This document shows positions 14,038 to 62,828 of a stretch of DNA of 64,000 bases, piece after piece. The DNA is from Candidatus Sumerlaeota bacterium (GTDB lineage Bacteria; Sumerlaeota; Sumerlaeia; MWCT01; JAUWMI01): NCBI GenBank assembly GCA_030613245.1, contig JAUWMI010000017.1, positions 1-64,000 on the forward strand. Direction: 5' to 3'. The notes beneath the pieces are model-generated. The model searched no databases. It worked only from the letters and a program-made list of their open reading frames with translations, and had not been told where the DNA came from. Made by a program: the position numbers and the translations under genes. Positions within the stretch are counted from its first letter, which is position 1; each line of letters opens with the position of its first letter.

Positions 14038-14156
14038 ATCTGATGCCTTGCCCTGGGGCTGTAAGGGTTCAACAATGTTGAATCCCTACATAAGACGTAA
14101 GACACATGATGCTACGAGCAAACTTGGCGTCCTTTGCGGCTTGGCGGTTCATGCTG

Positions 14157-23832: not shown

Positions 23833-24813
23833 TGCTGCTTGTATAAATAATGATGGACTTTAGAGCTTTTTCCAAGTGACTTGAGTGCGGTGAGGCTTTA
23901 ATGGCGCTATATGAAAGGCATTATCGCTCTTTGTACAGCTAAAGAAACAGCGGATGGCCTTGAGGGTCTGATTATTAACGCCACATTGTCATTTCAACTT
24001 TGCAGCTATCTATGCGCGTCAATAGTAGGGGCAATTCATGAATTGCCCCTACCAAGCTTGCATGCGTACCATTAACTATACAAACATCAATAAGATACAC
24101 GCATTTTGCACGATACTTTTATTGTAGGCCGCCTTGAGGCGGTCTCTACTTTGCATTCGCCCAGGCGAAGTGAAAGCGAAAGTTGGCTAAATAAAAACCA
24201 CCGGGGTTCACCCTGAAAGGTTCACCCTGAAGGGCGCTTTAGCGTCGCTTATCCACCCGCGGCTTTAGCCATTGCAATCTGAGCCACAGCGAGAAGCCAC
24301 GCTGAAGCGCACTAGTTGAGAATTCTTCTTTTACCCCCCAGCTAAAGCAGGGGGCAAAGAAGAGTCCGCCGAGGCGGACTAAAACCAAAAGGCCACATTC
24401 TCCTTAGAGCAATGTGGCAAAGGGGGTTATAGCTGAAAAGCCAGAGCTCTGGGAATTTCGTTCAGTTTGCATTCAGCGCTTAAAGTGAACGAAATTCACC
24501 GCGCCAAAGGCGGGTAAACTGCCTCGATCACCTTGCCTGAGGCTCACAATAGCTTTTTGGGCTTGAAGCATTCAAAAAGTTCTAAAGCTCAGAATAAGAA
24601 GCAACAACACAACAAAAAGTCTTATGTGTTTATCTGTGTTCATCTGCGTTCATCCGCGGTTCAAATATTTTAGTTACTATTGCAACCGCAGATACACGCG
24701 GATAGCACAAAGGATACGTCGAAATCTAAATTCGTGCCTATTCGTGTGATTCGTGTTAAAGTTAAGGAGGTTACGTCTGTTTATTAGAAGGGGCGATACT
24801 ACGGACGGGAAGG
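23833..24813. repeat. repeat-rich non-coding region
   Basis: No credible gene. It holds a perfect 28-bp GTAGGGGC palindrome (24025-24052), a GTAGGCCGCC...GGCGGTCTCTAC palindrome (24124-24149), a doubled GGTTCACCCTGAA near 24215-24235 and an AGTCCGCCGAGGCGGACT palindrome near 24365. There is also a 12-bp perfect inverted repeat GAATTTCGTTCA/TGAACGAAATTC (24453-24464, 24486-24497). Direct-repeat stretches of the ATTCGTG and CGCAGAT...CACGCGGAT types lie at about 24625-24765. These are dispersed genomic repeats. Confidence 0.65.
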
Positions 24814-31910: not shown

Positions 31911-31938
31911 GTAGGGGCGTTTAATTAAACGCCCTTAC
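31911..31938. repeat. GTAGGGGC-family palindrome, GTTTAATTAAAC core
   Basis: GTAGGGGCGTTTAA followed by TTAAACGCCCTTAC; near-perfect palindrome beyond ispH. The same core is next to the second copy of the neighbouring element at 59621-59643. Confidence 0.8.
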
Positions 31939-34130: not shown

Positions 34131-34158
34131 GTAGGGGCAATTCATGAATTGCCCCTAC
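34131..34158. repeat. perfect 28-bp GTAGGGGC palindrome
   Basis: GTAGGGGCAATTCA and TGAATTGCCCCTAC; identical in every base to the copy at 24025-24052, and 24 bp beyond the radical SAM gene. Confidence 0.9.
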
Positions 34159-35415: not shown

Positions 35416-35461
35416 GGTGGCACGGGCATCACGCCACAGGCGCATTTTCAACCTGCCCGTG
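35416..35461 (-). repeat. GGTGGCACGGGCA repeat with 22-bp module in its centre
   Basis: GGTGGCACGGGCAT and CCTGCCCGTG are the two arms of the repeat seen at 39453-39680 and 40597-40921. Between them sits a 22-bp module (35430-35451) that reads TTGAAAATGCGCC... on the minus strand. The rest of 35,198-35,515 holds only the repeats listed. Confidence 0.75.
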
Positions 35462-35515: not shown

Positions 35516-38002
35516 TTAAGGGACAGAATTAAAAGATTCGACAAGGACCGAATTGAGCATCAATGCTCCGGTTGCGGCATCTGAGGGGTCAAAGTTCAGA
35601 ATGTCAAATGCTGCGATAATGCTGTCTGCATCTGTTCCCACCAGTGACTGTGGCGGGTAGAAATAGAGATCGTAGGTACGTCCTTCCAGAGTCGGGCTCA
35701 TCTCCGCCCCGGTAACTGAACTTATTACCTTCACTACTCCCGACTGAAAATCTTCACTATGCACCCTGAGCCGAAGGCAAGGCACCACTTCTCTATCTAT
35801 AACATCGCTGCTCACATCAAACTGAACACGGTAGAGCTTATTTGCTTCAACCTGCACCTCTTCCGAAGGGCTACTCCAGAAGCCAAAGGTGTTCGTATTA
35901 TCCTGTGCAATAAGCCACAGTGCACTTCCATAAACATCGCTCACCGGCGCTTTAAAGATCGGTGCGCTGCCAAATTGCCAGCCCTCGGCTCCGCTCTCGA
36001 AACTCCATGCCCTAAGCACCGTCGGTGTGCTCAACGTATCCAGAGGCATTGCCTCCACCACTACGCTATCAAGCAGGAGCGACCCAGCAGCAGCATCGGA
36101 AGGATCAAAATTGAGGATATCAAACGATAGGATCAGATCATCTTGATCCTCTGGTTTTCCGAGACAGCTTTCTGGCGGGACAAAATACATCTCATACGTC
36201 CTGCCATCAGGAGTCGGCGCATACGAGCCATCTCCTGCACTACTGACTGCGAGGATATCCGCCTGCTGTAAATTCTGGCTGTTTACACGAAGCCGCATAT
36301 GCGGCACTGCCAGCGGATCTGTAATGTCTGTTGCCACTGTCCATCTTGCCCGATACAAGCAATCTGCTATCACCGGCACCGCATTTTGATTGCTCGCCCA
36401 ATAACCGAACGTATTGGTATTATCCTGCGCAGTAAGCATAATTTGTCCTTGGAGATAATTACACTCCGGTGGCGTGAAAAACGCGGGTACTATTGAACAT
36501 GTCCAGCCTTCTTCTGTTAACTCGAAATTATGATCTTTTAGTTGAATCGCTCCGGAGAATTCATCGGCACCAATGTCAAAGTCTGAACCATCGCCACGGA
36601 ATTGTGAGCTCCCATCATATGGTCTGAGGTCGCCCCCAAAATCCTGAGTAAGGTTTTCAACATAGCAACCTGCATCTATACAAAGGGAGTTAGGACGCAG
36701 ACGGAAATCGCCGTTTGCTGGATCAACTAATTGGGGATCAAACGAGATATTGCGAGTACCGCCACCTACCCAATCCTGAACGCAACTATAAAATGGAGTT
36801 CTGCACTCATAAAGCTGAGCCCCTCCAGGAGCTGCATTTTGCCAGATAATACAGTTTCTGATTGTGCTGTATTTACAATCCGAAAACCCGCCACCATCGC
36901 TACTGGCCGAGTTTCCATAAATGGTATTATTCTGGATGATGCCGTCGCAAGATTTCAGCCCCCCACCGGAAGATGCCTGGTTGCCTGAGATTATATTATT
37001 TTGGATAGTGCCGCTGCAGTAACTGATGCCGCCGCCGCTGCCAGCCGAGTTGGCCGAGATGATATTGTTCTGGATGGTGCCGTCGCAAGATTGCAGCCCC
37101 CCACCGGAAGATGCCCGGTTGCCTAAGATGGTATTATTCTGGATGACTCCGTCACAATAACGCATTCCCCCACCCTTAGTAGAAGCCGAGTTGCCCAAGA
37201 TCCTATTATTCTGGATGATGTTGTCACACCCGTAAAGTCCACCGCCAAAATCAGCTGAGTTGTCCAAGATCGTATTGTTCTGAACGATTCCCTGACACTG
37301 GTAGATCCCGGCTCCACAATGGGAGTCGTTGTCCCTTATAATGTTATTTTGTATAGCGCCGTTACACTTGAAGAGTCCGCCGCCATAGTAAGCGGAGTTA
37401 TACGAAATGATATTGTTCTGAATATTACCGTCGCACCCGGAGAGCCCGCCGCCAGTATAGGCCAAATTATCCGAGATGGTATTGTTCTGAATGATGCCGT
37501 GGCATCCCCATAGCCCGCCCCCATTCCCTGTCGGGTCGACATCGTATGCCGTATTTGCAGATATATTGTTGTTTTGTATAGTTGCCAATGTATAATTACC
37601 ATAAATACCGCTACCATTAGGAGCATAGCCATTTGTTATTGTGAAGCCAGAAAGAACACATGTTGGAGGTTCCGTCCCAGAGAACGTAACTACAGACCCT
37701 GCCAAGTTGCCATCAATAATTGTGCTTTGGACCACGCTGGGACTGGTAGGATCCGTGGAGCGAAGGACGATGTCTTTCCCTTCAAATCTTATATTCTCTA
37801 CATACGTGCCAGCTGAGACGATGATTTCATCGCCGTGAGAGGAAATATGAATTGCTCCTTGAATGGTTGGATATGGATATGGCACGTAACGAACCGCGCC
37901 AAAGCAGAAAAGTGGCAGAAGAAAAAAGCATAGGGAAGCGAGCGTGGTAATGCGTAAAGAATAAGAAGGTGGGAATACACTATCGGAACGAGCCCTTTTC
38001 AT
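35516..38002 (-). CDS. secreted right-handed beta-helix protein with cysteine ladder
   Basis: The ~828-residue protein has a signal peptide (LRITTLASLCFFLLPLFCFGA). Residues ~40-500 form a right-handed parallel beta-helix: TIQGAIHISSHGDEIIVSAGTY at the start, then ~10 rungs of ~24 residues of the form GGGL-x2-C-DG-IIQNN-TI-x-NSA. Each rung has a cysteine at the same place. RNCIIWQN and the INS/DIGADEF-type closure end the helix. Residues ~510-828 are two tandem ~155-residue beta-rich domains, each with AQDNTNTFG and FDILNFDPSDAA, likely carbohydrate- or surface-binding. ATG 38002 follows GGAAG. Function is unknown; a polysaccharide or surface role is inference. Paralog of 44607-48194. Confidence 0.85.
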   Translation of the reverse strand: MKRARSDSVFPPSYSLRITTLASLCFFLLPLFCFGAVRYVPYPYPTIQGAIHISSHGDEIIVSAGTYVENIRFEGKDIVLRSTDPTSPSVVQSTIIDGNLAGSVVTFSGTEPPTCVLSGFTITNGYAPNGSGIYGNYTLATIQNNNISANTAYDVDPTGNGGGLWGCHGIIQNNTISDNLAYTGGGLSGCDGNIQNNIISYNSAYYGGGLFKCNGAIQNNIIRDNDSHCGAGIYQCQGIVQNNTILDNSADFGGGLYGCDNIIQNNRILGNSASTKGGGMRYCDGVIQNNTILGNRASSGGGLQSCDGTIQNNIISANSAGSGGGISYCSGTIQNNIISGNQASSGGGLKSCDGIIQNNTIYGNSASSDGGGFSDCKYSTIRNCIIWQNAAPGGAQLYECRTPFYSCVQDWVGGGTRNISFDPQLVDPANGDFRLRPNSLCIDAGCYVENLTQDFGGDLRPYDGSSQFRGDGSDFDIGADEFSGAIQLKDHNFELTEEGWTCSIVPAFFTPPECNYLQGQIMLTAQDNTNTFGYWASNQNAVPVIADCLYRARWTVATDITDPLAVPHMRLRVNSQNLQQADILAVSSAGDGSYAPTPDGRTYEMYFVPPESCLGKPEDQDDLILSFDILNFDPSDAAAGSLLLDSVVVEAMPLDTLSTPTVLRAWSFESGAEGWQFGSAPIFKAPVSDVYGSALWLIAQDNTNTFGFWSSPSEEVQVEANKLYRVQFDVSSDVIDREVVPCLRLRVHSEDFQSGVVKVISSVTGAEMSPTLEGRTYDLYFYPPQSLVGTDADSIIAAFDILNFDPSDAATGALMLNSVLVESFNSVP

Positions 38003-38126: not shown

Positions 38127-38255
38127 GCCACGGAGACACAGAGGCACAGAGATTCTTAAAGAACCAAAACGTAAAATGAAAATTGTAAATATCAAATTTA
38201 AAATTTTCATTTTGCAATTTGCAATTTACAATTCACTACTGTGTGGCTCTGTGGC
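38127..38255. repeat. GCCACGGAGACAC inverted-repeat element, copy 1
   Basis: GCCACGGAGACACAGAGGCA at the left and its imperfect reverse complement ending CTCTGTGGC at the right enclose AT-rich TTGTAAAT/ATTTACAA-type inverted sequence. No coding capacity. A closely similar element lies at 42052-42189. Confidence 0.7.
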
Positions 38256-39347: not shown

Positions 39348-39452
39348 TCGGAATCCTTTTTAACACTACGTTGTCACAATTTTATGAGTATCGCAGGTAC
39401 AATATTTATATTGCTTTCAGAATTGCAGGATTGATATCTCAGCGTTCAGACC

Positions 39453-39708
39453 CACAGGCAAGATGCCTGTGCCACCGTGAGGAGATTTGGTGGCATGGGC
39501 ATCCTTGCCTGGTGGCACGGGCATTCCTGCCCGTGATTTTGTGTATCCTGCCCCTACATTTTAAATTCTTAGCATTTGTCTTCACAGGCAAGTTGAAAAT
39601 GCGCCTGTGGCGTGATGCCTGTGCCACCGTGAGGAGATTTGGTGGCATGGGCATCCCTGCCCGTGATTTTACGTCAGATCGTAGGGGCAACCCTTGTGGT
39701 TGCCCAAC
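39453..39708 (+). repeat. CACAGGCAAGATGCCTGTG repeat array with 22-bp module
   Basis: Two ~130-bp units begin at 39453 and 39583 with CACAGGCAAG. The first is the plain palindrome CACAGGCAAGATGCCTGTG. In the second the centre is split by a 22-bp module (39593-39614, TTGAAAATGCGCC...). Each continues with GGTGGCATGGGCATCC...CTGCCCGTG. A GTAGGGGC palindrome (39681-39708) with a CCTTGTGG core ends the array, which lies between the btuC- and btuD-like genes. Confidence 0.8.
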
Positions 39709-39728
39709 CAGTGTCCAGTGCACAGCTT

Positions 39729-40544
39729 TTACTTCAGCAGCCTCACAAAGGGCATCCCCCGCTCGTCTGTCAGAATCTCTACTTCAGTCTCATACGCGTC
39801 GCGAATAATCTCCCGCGAGATAATCTCCCCGGGCGTGCCTTCTTTCATCACCACGCCATCCTTGAGCAACACCAGGCGTTCGCAAAAGAGCGCAGCCAGA
39901 TTAATGTCGTGCGAAACCACCACGATGGTCTTCCCCTGTTCACGTCGCATACAGTCGAGCAGCCGGTAGATAAAAACCTGGTGCTTCAGGTCAAGCGAAG
40001 AAGTTGGCTCGTCAAGGAGAAGAACAGGGGTGTTTTGCGCGAGCGCACGCGCGACGATCACTCCCTGCTTCTCGCCACCGCTGAGCTCGGTAAAGAACCG
40101 GTCAGCAAAATGCGCCACATCGGTAGCCTCCATAGCCTGCTGAGCAATGGCAACGTCGCTCGCCATCTCGAAGGCAAATGGCCCAAGCCACGGATGCCGG
40201 CCCATCAGCACGATTTCCATCACCCTGTAGGGAAACACGATGTCGGTAAACTGCGGGACTATGGCAATGTGACGCGCAATATCATTAGCGGTGTAGGTGC
40301 GCAATTCCTTTTGGTGAAGCAGAATCCTGCCCTGGCGTGGTGAAAGCAGGCCGTTGAGCAGATTCAACAGTGTGGATTTCCCCGCGCCGTTCGGGCCAAT
40401 GATCCCAACGAACTCTCCCTGAAAGATACGCACAGAAAGCCCGCGCAGCACCGGCTTCTGGTCATACGAAAAGCCGATCTCCTCGGCTTCAAGCACCGGC
40501 GCATTTTTCAAAGTTTCACTGGTCTCTGACTCTAAGCTGCCCAC
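39729..40544 (-). CDS. BtuD/FhuC-like ABC transporter ATPase
   Basis: The 271-residue ATPase has Walker A GPNGAGKSTLLNLLNG, Q-loop VPQFTDIVFPY, signature ELSGGEKQGVIVARALAQ (LSGGEKQ), Walker B PVLLLDEPTSSLDL and H-loop VVVSHDIN. It energises the FecCD-type permease at 38319-39347. GTG start with GGGAGAA upstream. It is flanked on both sides by the same direct repeats (39453-39708 and 40597-40921), so it could be lost or duplicated by recombination. Confidence 0.93.
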   Translation of the reverse strand: MGSLESETSETLKNAPVLEAEEIGFSYDQKPVLRGLSVRIFQGEFVGIIGPNGAGKSTLLNLLNGLLSPRQGRILLHQKELRTYTANDIARHIAIVPQFTDIVFPYRVMEIVLMGRHPWLGPFAFEMASDVAIAQQAMEATDVAHFADRFFTELSGGEKQGVIVARALAQNTPVLLLDEPTSSLDLKHQVFIYRLLDCMRREQGKTIVVVSHDINLAALFCERLVLLKDGVVMKEGTPGEIISREIIRDAYETEVEILTDERGMPFVRLLK

Positions 40545-40596
40545 CCGAGCTTCTCCCTTTTTTCTAACAATAACTCACGGCCATGATGTTCAGACC

Positions 40597-40921
40597 CACA
40601 GGCAAGATGCCTGTGCCACCGTGAGGGGATTGGGTGGCATGGGCATCCCTGCCCGTGATCTTGTGCATCCTGCCCTTACATTTTGAACTTTTAGCATTTG
40701 TCTTCACAGGCAAGATGCCTGTGCCACCGAGAGGGGATTGGGTGACATGGGCATCCCTTGCCTGGTGGCACGTGCATCCCTGCCCGTGATCTTGTGTATC
40801 CCGCCCTTACATTTTGAACTTTTAGCATTTGTCTTCACAGGCAAGATGCCTGTGCTACCGTGAGGGGATTGGGTAGCATGGGCATCCCTTGCCTGGTGGC
40901 ACGGGCATCCTTGCCCGTGCT
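40597..40921 (+). repeat. three tandem units of the CACAGGCAAGATGCCTGTG repeat
   Basis: Units begin at 40597, 40705 and 40836, each with CACAGGCAAGATGCCTGTG, then GGGATTGGGTGG, CATGGGCATCCC...CTGCCCGTG and TTTTGAACTTTTAGCATTTG. Units differ by a ~23-bp expansion of the GGCATCCCTTGCCTGGTGGCA part. This fills the gap between the ATPase and binding-protein genes. Confidence 0.85.
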
Positions 40922-42051: not shown

Positions 42052-42189
42052 GCCACGGAGACACGGAGACACAGAGATCATTAAACACCAAAAGATTGTG
42101 AAATGCAAATTGCAAATATTAAATTTTAAATTTGCATTTTGAATTTTCCAATTTTCAATTTACAATTCAGTACCCTTTGTCTCTGTGGC
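42052..42189. repeat. GCCACGGAGACAC inverted-repeat element, copy 2
   Basis: GCCACGGAGACACGGAGACA at the left and TTTGTCTCTGTGGC at the right enclose AT-rich TTGCAAAT/ATTTGCA-type inverted repeats. It ends 8 bp before the ceramidase-like ATG and lengthens that frame artificially. Fragments of the same family occur at about 43560-43610, 55140-55165 and 62750-62780. Confidence 0.7.
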
Positions 42190-43514: not shown

Positions 43515-43647
43515 CGCTCTACTTTGCGCCTTTGCGCGAGAAAGTTTTTTTGTGTAACGCCAATAATTAATAGTGTTTTCTCTGTGCCTCTGCGCCTCTG
43601 TGGCCAATATTGGTAATGCGTCAAACTCGCAATAGAAAGGACCAGAC

Positions 43648-44606: not shown

Positions 44607-47600
44607 ATGAAGAAGATTAACTCTAACACCGTAAACTTAATTTCCCACTTCAAGACTCTGGCTTTCTCTCTACTTTCTCTGTTTTATCTTTTTCCCTTAA
44701 TATGCCAAGCAGCTGTAATTACCGTCCCGGGAGATTATCCAACAATTCAGTCGGCGATTGATGGTGCAGTTCATGGCGATGAAATTATCGTCTCGCCGGG
44801 CACCTACTATGAGACTGCCAACTTCAATGGCAAAAACATCATCCTTCGCTCTACTGATCCCACAATCCCCTCTGTCGTCGCCAGTACTATCATTGTCGGT
44901 ATAAACAAAAGAGGGGTTATTTTCTCTGGAACCGAACTCACCACCTGTGTCCTCTCTGGTTTTACCATAACCGGTGGCGGTGGTTCTCAAGCAGGAACGG
45001 CTTATGGAATTTTTGGCAACCGCACTCTTGCAACTATTGAGTATAATACAATAACCTCAAATACTTCAGTGAATATATGGGGTGGCTATGCAAGTGCCTA
45101 CGGCATCTACAGTTGTGATGGTATAATCCGATACAACACAATAGCAAACAACTGGGCTGCTTCTGTTATGGGTTCTATGGGGACTGCTTATGGCGGCGGT
45201 GTCTATGGTTGTGGCGGTAATATCCATGATAATGTTATTGCGCACAATTCTTTTTATGCGGACACCGTTTGGCCTGGGAGGGGAGGCAGCTATGGCGGTG
45301 GGCTGGTAGGGGGCCGCGGCACCATCGAGAATAATGTTATCTCGAATAACTATCCAGCGGGACTGTCGGGTTGCGGGGGCAGCACTATCCAGAACAATAC
45401 CATCTATGAGAACTCTAAAGGCATCTCTGGGTGCGACGGCATTATCCAGAACAATATCATCTATGAGAACCGGGGTAGCGGGCTCTACAATTGCGACGGC
45501 ATCATCCAGAACAATATCATCTCGGGTAATTCGGCTGAATTTGGCGGCGGACTCTACGGGTGCGACGGCATTATCCAGAACAATATCATCTCACACAACT
45601 CGGCCACTGGCGAACCTGGAACAACTGGCGGCGGCCTCCGTTCGTGCAACGGCATCATCCAGAACAATATCATTTACGACAACACGGCTGATTATTCTGG
45701 CGGGGGACTGGCCAGTTGTAACGGGACCATCAGAAACTGTATTATCTGGCAAAATAGCGCCCCTATAGGTGCTCAGGCTCAGCTTGATAATTATTGCGCA
45801 ACGCCGTCTTATAGCTGCATCCAAGATTGGGTTGGTGATGAGAGCGGAAATATTTCTGACAACCCTCAACTGGCTGACCCAGTCAATAGCGATTTTCATC
45901 TTCTCCCCAATTCTCCCTGCATTGATGCAGGAGGCACTGTTACCTTAACTCAAGACTTTGAAGGCGACCCGAGACCGTACGATGCTGTCACCTGGGAGTC
46001 TCGTGGTGACGGCTCGGACTTTGACATCGGTCCTGATGAATTCATCGGAGCAGCAGTGCCTACGCCAATACCCACACCCACACCAACGCCGTGTGTGATT
46101 ATGGTGCCGGGTGATTATCCAACAATTCAGGCTGCAATTGATGCGGCCAGACATGGTTGTGAAATCATTGTCTCACCAGGCGTCTACTACGAAAACATCT
46201 ACTTTCATGGAAAAAGCATTATCCTGCGCTCTACTGACCCCACCAGTCCAACCATAGTCGCCAGCACCATCATTGATGGCAACCAGGCCGGATCTGTTGT
46301 TACTTTCTCTGGGACAGAATATCGTACCTGCATGCTCTCCGGCTTCACCATAACCAACGGCAGGACTTATATGGGTGGGGGGATCTTAGGCAACGGTACC
46401 ACGGCTACCATTGAGAACAACAATATAACTAGCAATACAGCTGACGTTGGGTATGCTGGTGGCGGCGGGCTCTACAATTGCGACGGCACCATCCAGTACA
46501 ATACCATCTCGGGCAACTTGGCTGATGGTAGTGGCGGCGGGCTCGTCTGGTGCAACGGAACTATCCAGCACAATACCATCTCCGGCAACTCGGCTGACGA
46601 TGGCGGCGGGCTCTCCCAGTGCGGCGGCACTATCAATAACAATAGAATTTCGGCCAACTTGGCTACGGCCGGTGGCGGTGGACTTAGTTGGTGCTTAGGC
46701 ACTATCCAGAACAATGTCATTTCGGGCAACTCGGCTGGATTCGGCGGTGGGCTCGACAATTGCTGGGCCACCATCCAGAACAATACCATATATGGCAACG
46801 TGGCCTCTTATTCTGGCGGTGGGCTTTATGACTGTACGCGTTGGAGTATGATCAGAAACTGTATTATCTGGCAAAATACCGCTAATTCAGGTGGTGCTCA
46901 ATTTGATGACTGTAACACACCTTCTTATAGTTGTATCCAAGATTGGACAGGCGGTGGGACCGGGAATATCTCTGATAATCCCCAATTAGTTGACCCAGCC
47001 AATGGCGATTTTCATCTGCTTCCCAGTTCGCCTTGCATAGATGCAGGTGGCACTGTTACTTTAACTCAAGACTTTGAAGGGAACCCAAGACCCTGGGATG
47101 GCACGAGTGAAACTCGTGGCGACGGCTCGGATTATGACATCGGCGCTGATGAATACTATATTCCAACGACACACATTACGGAGTATACGTTTGATTTGAG
47201 TGTTGAAGGCTGGTCATTCTTGCCGATAAGCAGCCTTTACTTCTCCGCAGCATCGTCCAGCTATACTGGTGGCCGTATAGGCATAAGTTCAGCAAATGAT
47301 CCAACAAGCCGCCTGGGGATGTGGATTGGCCCAGTGGATATTCCGTACATGGCGGGGAATGTGTACAGGGCGAGGTTTGTAGTCTCCTCAAGTCAAGCCA
47401 CGGCGTCTCAGAATCCGCAGTTCCGCATGCGTTGGGTTCAGGATGAATCTCTCGAGTCTGCAACACAGGTGGTGAACGCCTCAGGAACGTACAGCAACTC
47501 CTTGCCCACTGATCCAACAACAAGTACATACAGCTGCTACTTTGCGCCGATCGTAAGCGGCAACCTGGGAGTTGCATTTGATATGATTGACTTTGACGTG

Positions 47601-52927: not shown

Positions 52928-53387
52928 TTTCGCTCCCCTCTGCTAACGGCTTGTATTCACGAAGTGCTGGACACAATTTCCCGAAGGCTAAGCAAAGCGC
53001 TGCGTGAATACTTTGTTTCGCGACCTTCCGTAACCTCGTGAATACAAAATTGTAAAGTGCAAATTGTAAATATTAAATTCCAAGTTGAAATTCTATTCTC
53101 TATTCACTTTGCATTTTTCAATTTGCCAATACGCGATTAAATGCTCCTAAAAGCTGATTTGCTTTCTCTTCCATTTTAAAATTTCCAATTTCCAATCTTC
53201 AATTTACAATTCGACATTCTTAGAATGTCGCCTAACGGAAGATAATCAACACCATTGTAACCCAACAGCAGCGCTGCCTGGTTGCTCCCGCTCGCCCCAC
53301 ACGCGCACACGGCAGAGCCTCTCTGAGCCCGCACATGCTGCGCCAAGCTGCACCTCAGGGTTAAATGCAACCAGGGTCAGCCTAACG
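52928..53387. repeat. AT-rich repeat region upstream of spt
   Basis: 53043-53215 is built of AATTGTAAATATTAAATT- and AATTTACAATTC-type inverted pieces, the same AT-rich material as inside the elements at 38127 and 42052. An apparent 64-codon minus-strand frame at 53176-53370 has no family match and ends in repeat sequence. No gene is supported. Confidence 0.5.
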
Positions 53388-54937: not shown

Positions 54938-55196
54938 AAAATACCTCCGCGCTCCCTCCCCATGCACACAGCCACAAACATACTCAAAGACGAAAGAATT
55001 GTAAAATTAAAATTGCAAAAAATCAAACCCTATTAATCCTGTAAATCTTGTAAATCCTGTCTTAAAAAAATTAGGAAACGTATTCTGACTTTAAAAGAGA
55101 GGAAACTCTCCTCCAACGCAAAATCTGGAATAAAATACCGCCACGGAGACACAGAGGCGCAGAGATTCTCAAAGAAAGAATCTGTTTATTGTATTC

Positions 55197-57458: not shown

Positions 57459-57556
57459 GGGACATGAGGTTAAAAATGTATTGAATTTCCGTCGTTTCTT
57501 TTCAATAGTAGGTTTTCATATTGAGCGATGTAAAGGATTTTTCGGCTAGGTGAGAA

Positions 57557-57967
57557 GTGGAACACGAATTACACGAATGTACGAATGGCACGAATGAAGA
57601 GAAGGTGGTATATAAAGAGTTGTCGTTCAAGATAATTGAAGCATGCTTCGAGGTTCACAATATTTTAGGTCCAGGATATTCAGAGAAGATATATGAGGAG
57701 GCTCTATCAAAGGAGTTGAGGAATAGAGACATCGGAGATGAAAGACAGAAGTTGGTGGAGGTTTACTATAAGGGTGAAAAGATAGGGGAATACAGGTTGG
57801 ATCTGGTTGTGGAGAACAAAATTATTTTGGAACTTAAGGCAGTATCGGAGCTAAGCAATGTATTTGAAGCACAGCTGCTTTCTTATTTAAAAGCTGCTGG
57901 AATGAAGCTAGGAATACTGGTAAACTTTGGCAGCAAGAAGGTAATATACAGACGAATAGTAAACTAA
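57557..57967 (+). CDS. GxxExxY-family protein (PD-(D/E)XK-like)
   Basis: The ~136-residue protein carries the family signature in GPGYSEKIYEEALSKELR (G-x2-E-x2-Y), then GEYRLDLVVENKIILELKAV, the D-x-n-E-L-K pattern of a PD-(D/E)XK nuclease fold, and LLSYLKAAGMKLGILVNFGS. Biological role of the family is unknown. The N-terminal ~15 residues (EHELHECTNGTNEE) are translated from an ACGAAT repeat tract; a GTG at 57605 (VVYKELSFKI) could be the real start. The gene sits between inverted ACACGAAT repeats (57559-57597 and 57970-58008). It is more AT-rich than the adjacent genes. Confidence 0.88.
   Translation: MEHELHECTNGTNEEKVVYKELSFKIIEACFEVHNILGPGYSEKIYEEALSKELRNRDIGDERQKLVEVYYKGEKIGEYRLDLVVENKIILELKAVSELSNVFEAQLLSYLKAAGMKLGILVNFGSKKVIYRRIVN
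57559..57597 (+). repeat. left ACGAAT repeat flanking the GxxExxY gene
   Basis: GAACACGAATTACACGAAT followed by GTACGAATGGCACGAATGAA. Inverted counterpart at 57970-58008; 18 of 19 bases of the outer blocks are complementary. Confidence 0.8.
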
Positions 57968-57969
57968 AA

Positions 57970-58008
57970 TATTCGTGTAATTCGTCTATTCGTGTCATTC
58001 GTGTTCAA
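57970..58008 (-). repeat. right ACGAAT repeat flanking the GxxExxY gene
   Basis: ATTCGTGTAATTCGTCTA followed by ATTCGTGTCATTCGTGTTC; begins two bases beyond the stop codon. A further fragment of this family is near 24731-24765. Confidence 0.8.
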
Positions 58009-62640: not shown

Positions 62641-62828
62641 TTTCTGCTGAACGAAATTGCTGCCGGCCTTTTGAGCATTGAATTCTAAATCGCAGAAGGA
62701 AAATTTAAAATTTGATATTTGCAATTTTAATTTTACAATTCTTTCCCGCTTTACGATCTCTGTGCCTCCGTGGCGTTCTTTACTTTGCTTTTTTGCTTTG
62801 AGGAACTCGTCCCATGCAGGGGCCTTCT

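Follow-up and report, generated by a model that had tools for sequence, protein, structure and literature searches.

What is a small gene of the GxxExxY family doing between inverted repeats, one of which runs into its own coding sequence? The question is raised by a locus in the DNA that we analysed (the window, 64,000 nucleotides from a contig of a Candidatus Sumerlaeota bacterium), where an earlier note, made from the letters alone, had described the gene as enclosed by inverted repeats, with the left repeat translated as the protein's N-terminus and the right one lying two bases beyond the stop. Our answer is that gene and repeats together probably form an autonomous mobile element, about 0.46 kb long, that encodes nothing but the GxxExxY nuclease and has an array of three to four heptamers at each end, the two arrays being inverted relative to each other. 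In the window it is laid out as follows:

57546 to 58007, plus strand: whole element (left arm, GxxExxY gene, right arm), the extent of 95.7% homology with a second copy (L004, G000:C48), with unrelated flanks on both sides
57557 to 57967, plus strand: GxxExxY protein gene, 136 aa, GTG start; the left arm encodes residues 2-13; catalytic-type residues E43, D82, E92-x-K94 and Q106
57560 to 57595, plus strand: left arm, with CACGAAT at 57563-57569, CACGAAT at 57572-57578, TACGAAT at 57580-57586 and CACGAAT at 57589-57595, spacing 9-8-9
57971 to 58006, minus strand: right arm, inverted, with the same 9-8-9 spacing as the left arm

The enclosure described for this gene was borne out. The arms are 36 nt each, 86% complementary and 375 nt apart; a Shine-Dalgarno-like AGGTGAG stands directly upstream of the GTG at 57557, and the stop codon TAA (57965-57967) is followed, after a gap of two bases, by TATTCGTG at 57970. 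Each arm repeats a heptamer four times with little variation ((C/T)ACGAAT in the left arm), and the spacer letters differ between the two arms. The window contains seven copies of the word ACACGAAT, where 1.7 are expected and no shuffle out of 100 gets to 7; five of the seven are at the GxxExxY gene. As the repeat word named in the earlier note, ACACGAAT is correct here, but it proves to be one word among many across loci; likewise, translation of the left repeat as the N-terminus is right for the window gene, read from the GTG, and is common without being general: at 90 of 179 loci the frame stays open across the arm. Many annotated proteins that start with TEDTEK- or NHEGHE-like runs may, we presume, begin with translated arms.

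Arms of this kind border GxxExxY genes generally. All seven GxxExxY genes of the window's own genome lie between inverted arrays, built from five types of word: ACACGAAT (two genes), CACAGAG, CAC-N-AAG, ACAGGAT/ATAGGAT and ACAAGAT (two genes). Beyond this genome, loci were collected from 40 genomes of the same phylum, from named genomes of many phyla and from a domain-wide set; an alignment of the seven paralogues was too diverged for locus search and a single-protein query was used, which skewed the named-genome set towards the type of locus L003, and the domain-wide set was therefore added. When the 200 bp on either side of the domain were aligned with each other by Smith-Waterman, the downstream stretch as its reverse complement (threshold, a score of at least 16), inverted arms were found at 179 of 232 GxxExxY loci (77%; 68%, 82% and 82% in the three sets) and at 7 of the 367 ORFs from these loci that served as controls (2%; Fisher p 2.9e-93), leaving 53 of the 232 loci without a detected pair. 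Arms paired across different loci pass the threshold in 10% of cases and shuffled arms in less than 1%, and 16 of 21 held-out loci have inverted arms. The enrichment beside GxxExxY genes that had been proposed as a check is thus present. The gene itself was found in 112 of 386 sampled bacterial species; one genome (G179:C1, 793844-827837) has ten GxxExxY matches, of which five or more lie within 34 kb, together with 83 T-type arrays.

How are the arms built, and what is conserved in them? The usual arm has three, sometimes four, heptamers of the form C-R-C-N-R-A-K, 8-10 bp apart (spacers of 1-3 nt), the outermost often preceded by AC, with ACC at the tip of the arm, and the commonest layout has one arm on each side of the gene (89 loci). 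Where both arms consist of strict C-R-C-N-R-A-D words, they share the same spacing at 81 of 84 loci, against 22 expected by shuffled pairing. The two arms differ from each other in 3-6% of cases at word positions 2, 5 and 7, in 30% at position 4 and in 45% in the spacers (positions 1, 3 and 6 are set by the search pattern). Corresponding and non-corresponding units of the two arms show equal mismatch, within error, at every tested position, which gives no support to hairpin pairing as the conserved feature. Because corresponding units are no more alike than others, the arms seem to be unselected for base-by-base pairing, and seem instead to be words read singly at a fixed spacing.

Gene and arms move as a unit. 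The two ACACGAAT copies in the window's own genome (L004 and L006) are 95.7% identical over 468 bp, and the homology stops at the outer edges of the arms, beyond which the flanks are unrelated. Empty sites in sister genomes, another check named by the earlier note, were found twice. A Planctomycetota contig (L108) has 543 bp containing arm, gene and arm where two sisters, with the same flanking genes, have 20 bp (L099) and about 50 bp (L104); and G389 is without the element that L175, from the genus of G098, has between the same two flanking genes. These empty sites are intergenic DNA that holds no gene-less copy. No target-site duplication was seen at L004/L006, L108 or L175, where the relatives are too diverged for base-exact edges. 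An empty site for the window element was sought in 61 genomes, and the adjoining gene was found in no relative. Carriage on other replicons is rare or nil, with matches in 6 of 72,556 plasmids and 0 of 50,697 phages.

The arrays also occur in large numbers away from any gene. Tallied by hand across 386 genomes, at least three arrays of G-type words are present in 64 of 112 gene-positive genomes against 5 of 274 gene-negative ones (p 5.9e-36), and the backward control pattern reaches at most two in any genome; at least four T-type arrays, again by hand tally, are present in 27 of the 112 and 3 of the 274. In the window's own genome one word class gives 79 hits against seven genes, and elsewhere the ratio reaches 215 hits against three genes. 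Five array-positive genomes, with up to 30 hits (in G047), have no TIGR04256 match, namely G047, G158, G185, G310 and G351, and in these the gene may have decayed, the assembly may be incomplete or another enzyme may act. Hairpins, whose loops measure 7-110 nt, account for many of the gene-less copies. Four gene-less interiors at three loci (two at L123, one each at L157 and L235) still encode remnants of the GxxExxY C-terminus, and at least some gene-less copies are therefore internal-deletion derivatives. Some genes have complete hairpins on both sides (L003, L089, L025 and L245). At L133 (3487-4021) a gene-less element is present in three tandem copies of 189 bp immediately downstream of a GxxExxY gene.

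The protein had been called PD-(D/E)XK-like, and the profile scores and predicted fold confirm this. It matches TIGR04256 (GxxExxY) at 143.4 bits (cut-off 35) and PF13366 (PDDEXK_3) at 137.1 bits (cut-off 22), both over the full model, and its predicted structure (pLDDT 93) has a Cas4-like PD-(D/E)XK fold. The model's best PDB match is the Cas4 protein SSO0001 (4ic1; E 5e-5, TMq about 0.5), followed by lambda-type exonuclease, MGME1 and the nuclease domains of AddAB/AdnAB; a sequence search for relatives of solved structure gave none. Weak Cas4 profile matches occur in 59 of 96 GxxExxY members, and PADLOC reports weak Cas4/PDC similarity. Residues G40, E43, D82, E92, K94 and Q106 are invariant across 96 sequences, and Y46 nearly so. 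Family membership and these conserved residues suggest that GxxExxY cleaves DNA. The protein consists of the nuclease core alone and has no additional domain for binding DNA. Cas4 and other RecB-type nucleases share its fold, but the window protein, with 136 aa and two Cys, lacks the Cas4-type four-Cys iron-sulphur site, no Cas match was found among the adjacent genes tested, and GxxExxY is linked to repeats of its own. Among other PD-(D/E)XK proteins, the Rpn (YhgA-like, Transposase_31) family is named after transposases and linked to DNA mobility (PMC5350276); Rpn nucleases, which have recently been reported to be phage-defence toxins with internal antitoxins (PMC10327210), belong to a different Pfam family from GxxExxY.

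Does such a protein read the words in its arms? Between genomes, arm similarity increases with protein similarity (Mantel r 0.31, null sd 0.044), and single residues co-vary with single bases. Base 5 of the word (A or G) tracks residue 118, with Leu accompanying A in 49 of 52 cases and Val, Ile or Arg mostly accompanying G. The tree implies about 21 changes of base 5, and among 24 path-disjoint pairs 15.4 change in the same direction as residue 118 and 0 in the opposite one (median p 6e-5), on a tree that is weakly supported, with only four pairs on starred branches, too few for a test. Residue 118 stands far above all others of 140 residue tests, and its link with base 5 recurs in all three samples and in pairs taken within single genomes (9:0). 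Base 7 (G or T) tracks the presence or absence of a KDG-type C-terminal loop (89/91 and 26/27), a coupling that forms one deep split and, with a single loop change on the tree, counts as one event; our first reading of this coupling by itself as a code was dropped for that reason. Residues 52, 117 and 81 have weak or no tree support as partners of base 2. In held-out loci with strict words, base 5 was predicted in 9 of 9 and base 7 in 9 of 9; among held-out loci with looser words, judged by eye, L305, L307, L314 and L297 break the rule. For the window protein, Leu at 118 and the lack of a KDG loop predict a word ending in A-A-T, which is what the arms have. T-type arrays are commoner in loop-negative genomes (p 0.008), and G-type array abundance shows no difference between loop-positive and loop-negative genomes, in part because the comparison covers a subset of the genes in these genomes. 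It is strongly suggested that the protein recognises the words of its arms. The earlier note had proposed that the protein recognises or spreads its flanking repeats, and the correlated change of residue and word supports the first half of that proposal; cleavage and transposition by the protein are presumed steps beyond it.

Could something other than GxxExxY move these repeats? The nearest parallel in plan is the REPtron, in which a small RAYT gene (TnpA-REP) lies between inverted palindromic repeats (REP, BIME, REPIN), many gene-less copies accompany it, repeat class tracks enzyme class and the repeats beside the gene can extend into its reading frame (PMC2817692, PMC3116915, PMC3733652, PMC8266576). 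Our element shares with it one small gene, inverted repeats, the presence of many gene-less copies in its genome and the tracking of word and enzyme, and a REP/RAYT-like relation had been suggested from the start. That suggestion stands for the general plan and fails for the parts: the enzyme here is PD-(D/E)XK and theirs HUH/Y1; the arms here are ACC plus three to four direct C-R-C-N-R-A-K heptamers, unlike REPs, which are GTAG-tagged hairpins; and here there is no base-pair register between the arms. Since the enzyme class is another, the GTAG hairpin is absent and a Y1 gene is dispensable, the element is not a member of the REP/RAYT group. A Y1 (HUH) transposase might still move REP-like palindromes as single strands with GxxExxY as a passenger, and the REPtron-like layout (PMC2817692, PMC3733652), together with a PF01797 match in 60 of 69 array-rich genomes (hand count), would fit this. 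However, PF01797 occurs in 60% of all genomes regardless, several of the most array-rich genomes lack it (G369 with 215 hits, G240 with 117, G012 with 53 and G014 with 52), and both the missing register and the co-variation of words with GxxExxY residues speak against it; Y1 as the mover is disfavoured, and we give this account almost no credence. A guest of another sort would be a homing-like parasite, with some other enzyme spreading short palindromic elements and GxxExxY, as a homing endonuclease, invading them: it would cut a gene-less copy, and recombination between arms would then copy the gene into the break. The complete gene-less hairpins that flank some genes on both sides are in direct orientation, as expected of insertion into a hairpin, and orthologous GxxExxY genes at about 2900-3340 of L132, L152 and L158, where flanks are about 94% identical, seem mosaic, as if converted between copies. 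Yet a single arm on each side is the commonest layout, the empty sites hold no gene-less copy, the gene remnants imply that at least some gene-less copies come from the gene-bearing form, and an unsystematic look at neighbours found no other common enzyme beside the elements. We consider homing unlikely.

Two further accounts do away with transposition. If the arms were operators or terminators of an autoregulated gene, kept by descent, their positions, at the start codon for the left arm and at the stop for the right one, would make sense, as would the conservation of word and spacing in both; against this, gene-less copies number tens to hundreds per genome and lie in unrelated places, and empty sites exist, so that immobile regulatory arrays are extremely improbable. 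A restriction- or toxin-like selfish module, whose nuclease attacks cells that lose the protective arms, would accommodate a nuclease with no partner gene, repeats that are numerous in gene-positive genomes and the weak Cas4/PDC similarity in PADLOC, but the element contains no modification gene or antitoxin, the five gene-negative genomes keep their arrays, and the presence of arms at both ends of the gene is left unexplained; this, too, strikes us as very improbable.

The reading that we prefer is an element moved by its own nuclease. For its insertion we infer a mechanism in which GxxExxY, probably in several copies, would bind the words in each arm, its PD-(D/E)XK centre would cut at or beside the arms, and the freed or broken DNA would be inserted or copied elsewhere through host repair and replication, with gene-less elements that carry fitting words being served in trans. 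TIRtrons offer a precedent in plan, since a gene encoding a TIRYT lies within inverted repeats and internal-deletion derivatives are moved in trans (PMC3733652). They and MITEs resemble our element in the inverted repeats that border a gene and in the deletion derivatives, but TIRYTs are Y1 enzymes. Classical TIR transposons have inverted terminal repeats, as here, but our element has GxxExxY as its only gene and encodes no DDE/D or other known transposase. The partners of classical MITEs are DDE transposases, and to our knowledge a lone PD-(D/E)XK nuclease is no known type of transposase.

Whether this amounts to a new class of prokaryotic element seems to us about evenly balanced: one Cas4-like PD-(D/E)XK nuclease would be the whole transposition enzyme, would read tandem heptamers by a code that links the protein to single bases (residue 118 with base 5, the C-terminal loop with base 7) and would stand behind the CACAGAG/CGCAAAG/CGCAGAT/CACGAAT-type palindromic repeats of many phyla. 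We would call the class new in enzyme and end structure; its plan, an element with trans-mobilised miniatures, is already known. No earlier account of a link between GxxExxY and repeats was found in the open-licence literature, which misses most subscription journals. If the idea is true, it gives a function to a family named by its motif alone and present in 112 of 386 sampled bacterial species, it explains what spreads a class of dispersed repeats that is very common in bacteria and for which we found no described agent, and it adds a lone PD-(D/E)XK nuclease to the few enzymes known to mobilise DNA. The residue-base rules make it directly testable.

The window itself contains gene-less relatives of the element:

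14123 to 14146, minus strand: arm with CGCCAAG words
24632 to 24658 (minus strand), 24687 to 24712 (plus strand) and 24730 to 24755 (minus strand): three arms, the last with ACACGAAT words
38129 to 38151, plus strand: CACGGAGACACAGAGGCACAGAG arm
42054 to 42076, plus strand: CACGGAGACACGGAGACACAGAG arm
43580 to 43602, minus strand: arm
55036 to 55060, minus strand: arm with ACAGGAT/ACAAGAT words
55142 to 55164, plus strand: arm

The three arms at 24632-24755 form a composite of CGCAGAT and ACACGAAT words, so arms of different classes are found together. A second dispersed repeat, of AAAATTGTAAATATCAAATTT type with a 14-bp register, occurs at 38163-38234, 42090-42175, 53030-53226 and 62684-62741, and several of its copies adjoin or lie within gene-less CACAGAG elements. 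The perfect palindromic repeat GTAGGGGCAATTCATGAATTGCCCCTAC and a variant of it (24025-24052, 31911-31938 and 34131-34158) have GTAG at the tip and resemble an ordinary REP. Repeats of about 131 bp with CACAGGCAAGATGCCTGTGCCACC, tandem and dispersed, fill 39444-40919, with relatives at 35416 and 56387, and repeated coding-type units of about 69 nt (NNxI repeats, parallel beta-helix-like) lie on opposite strands at 36890-37528 and 45102-46808.
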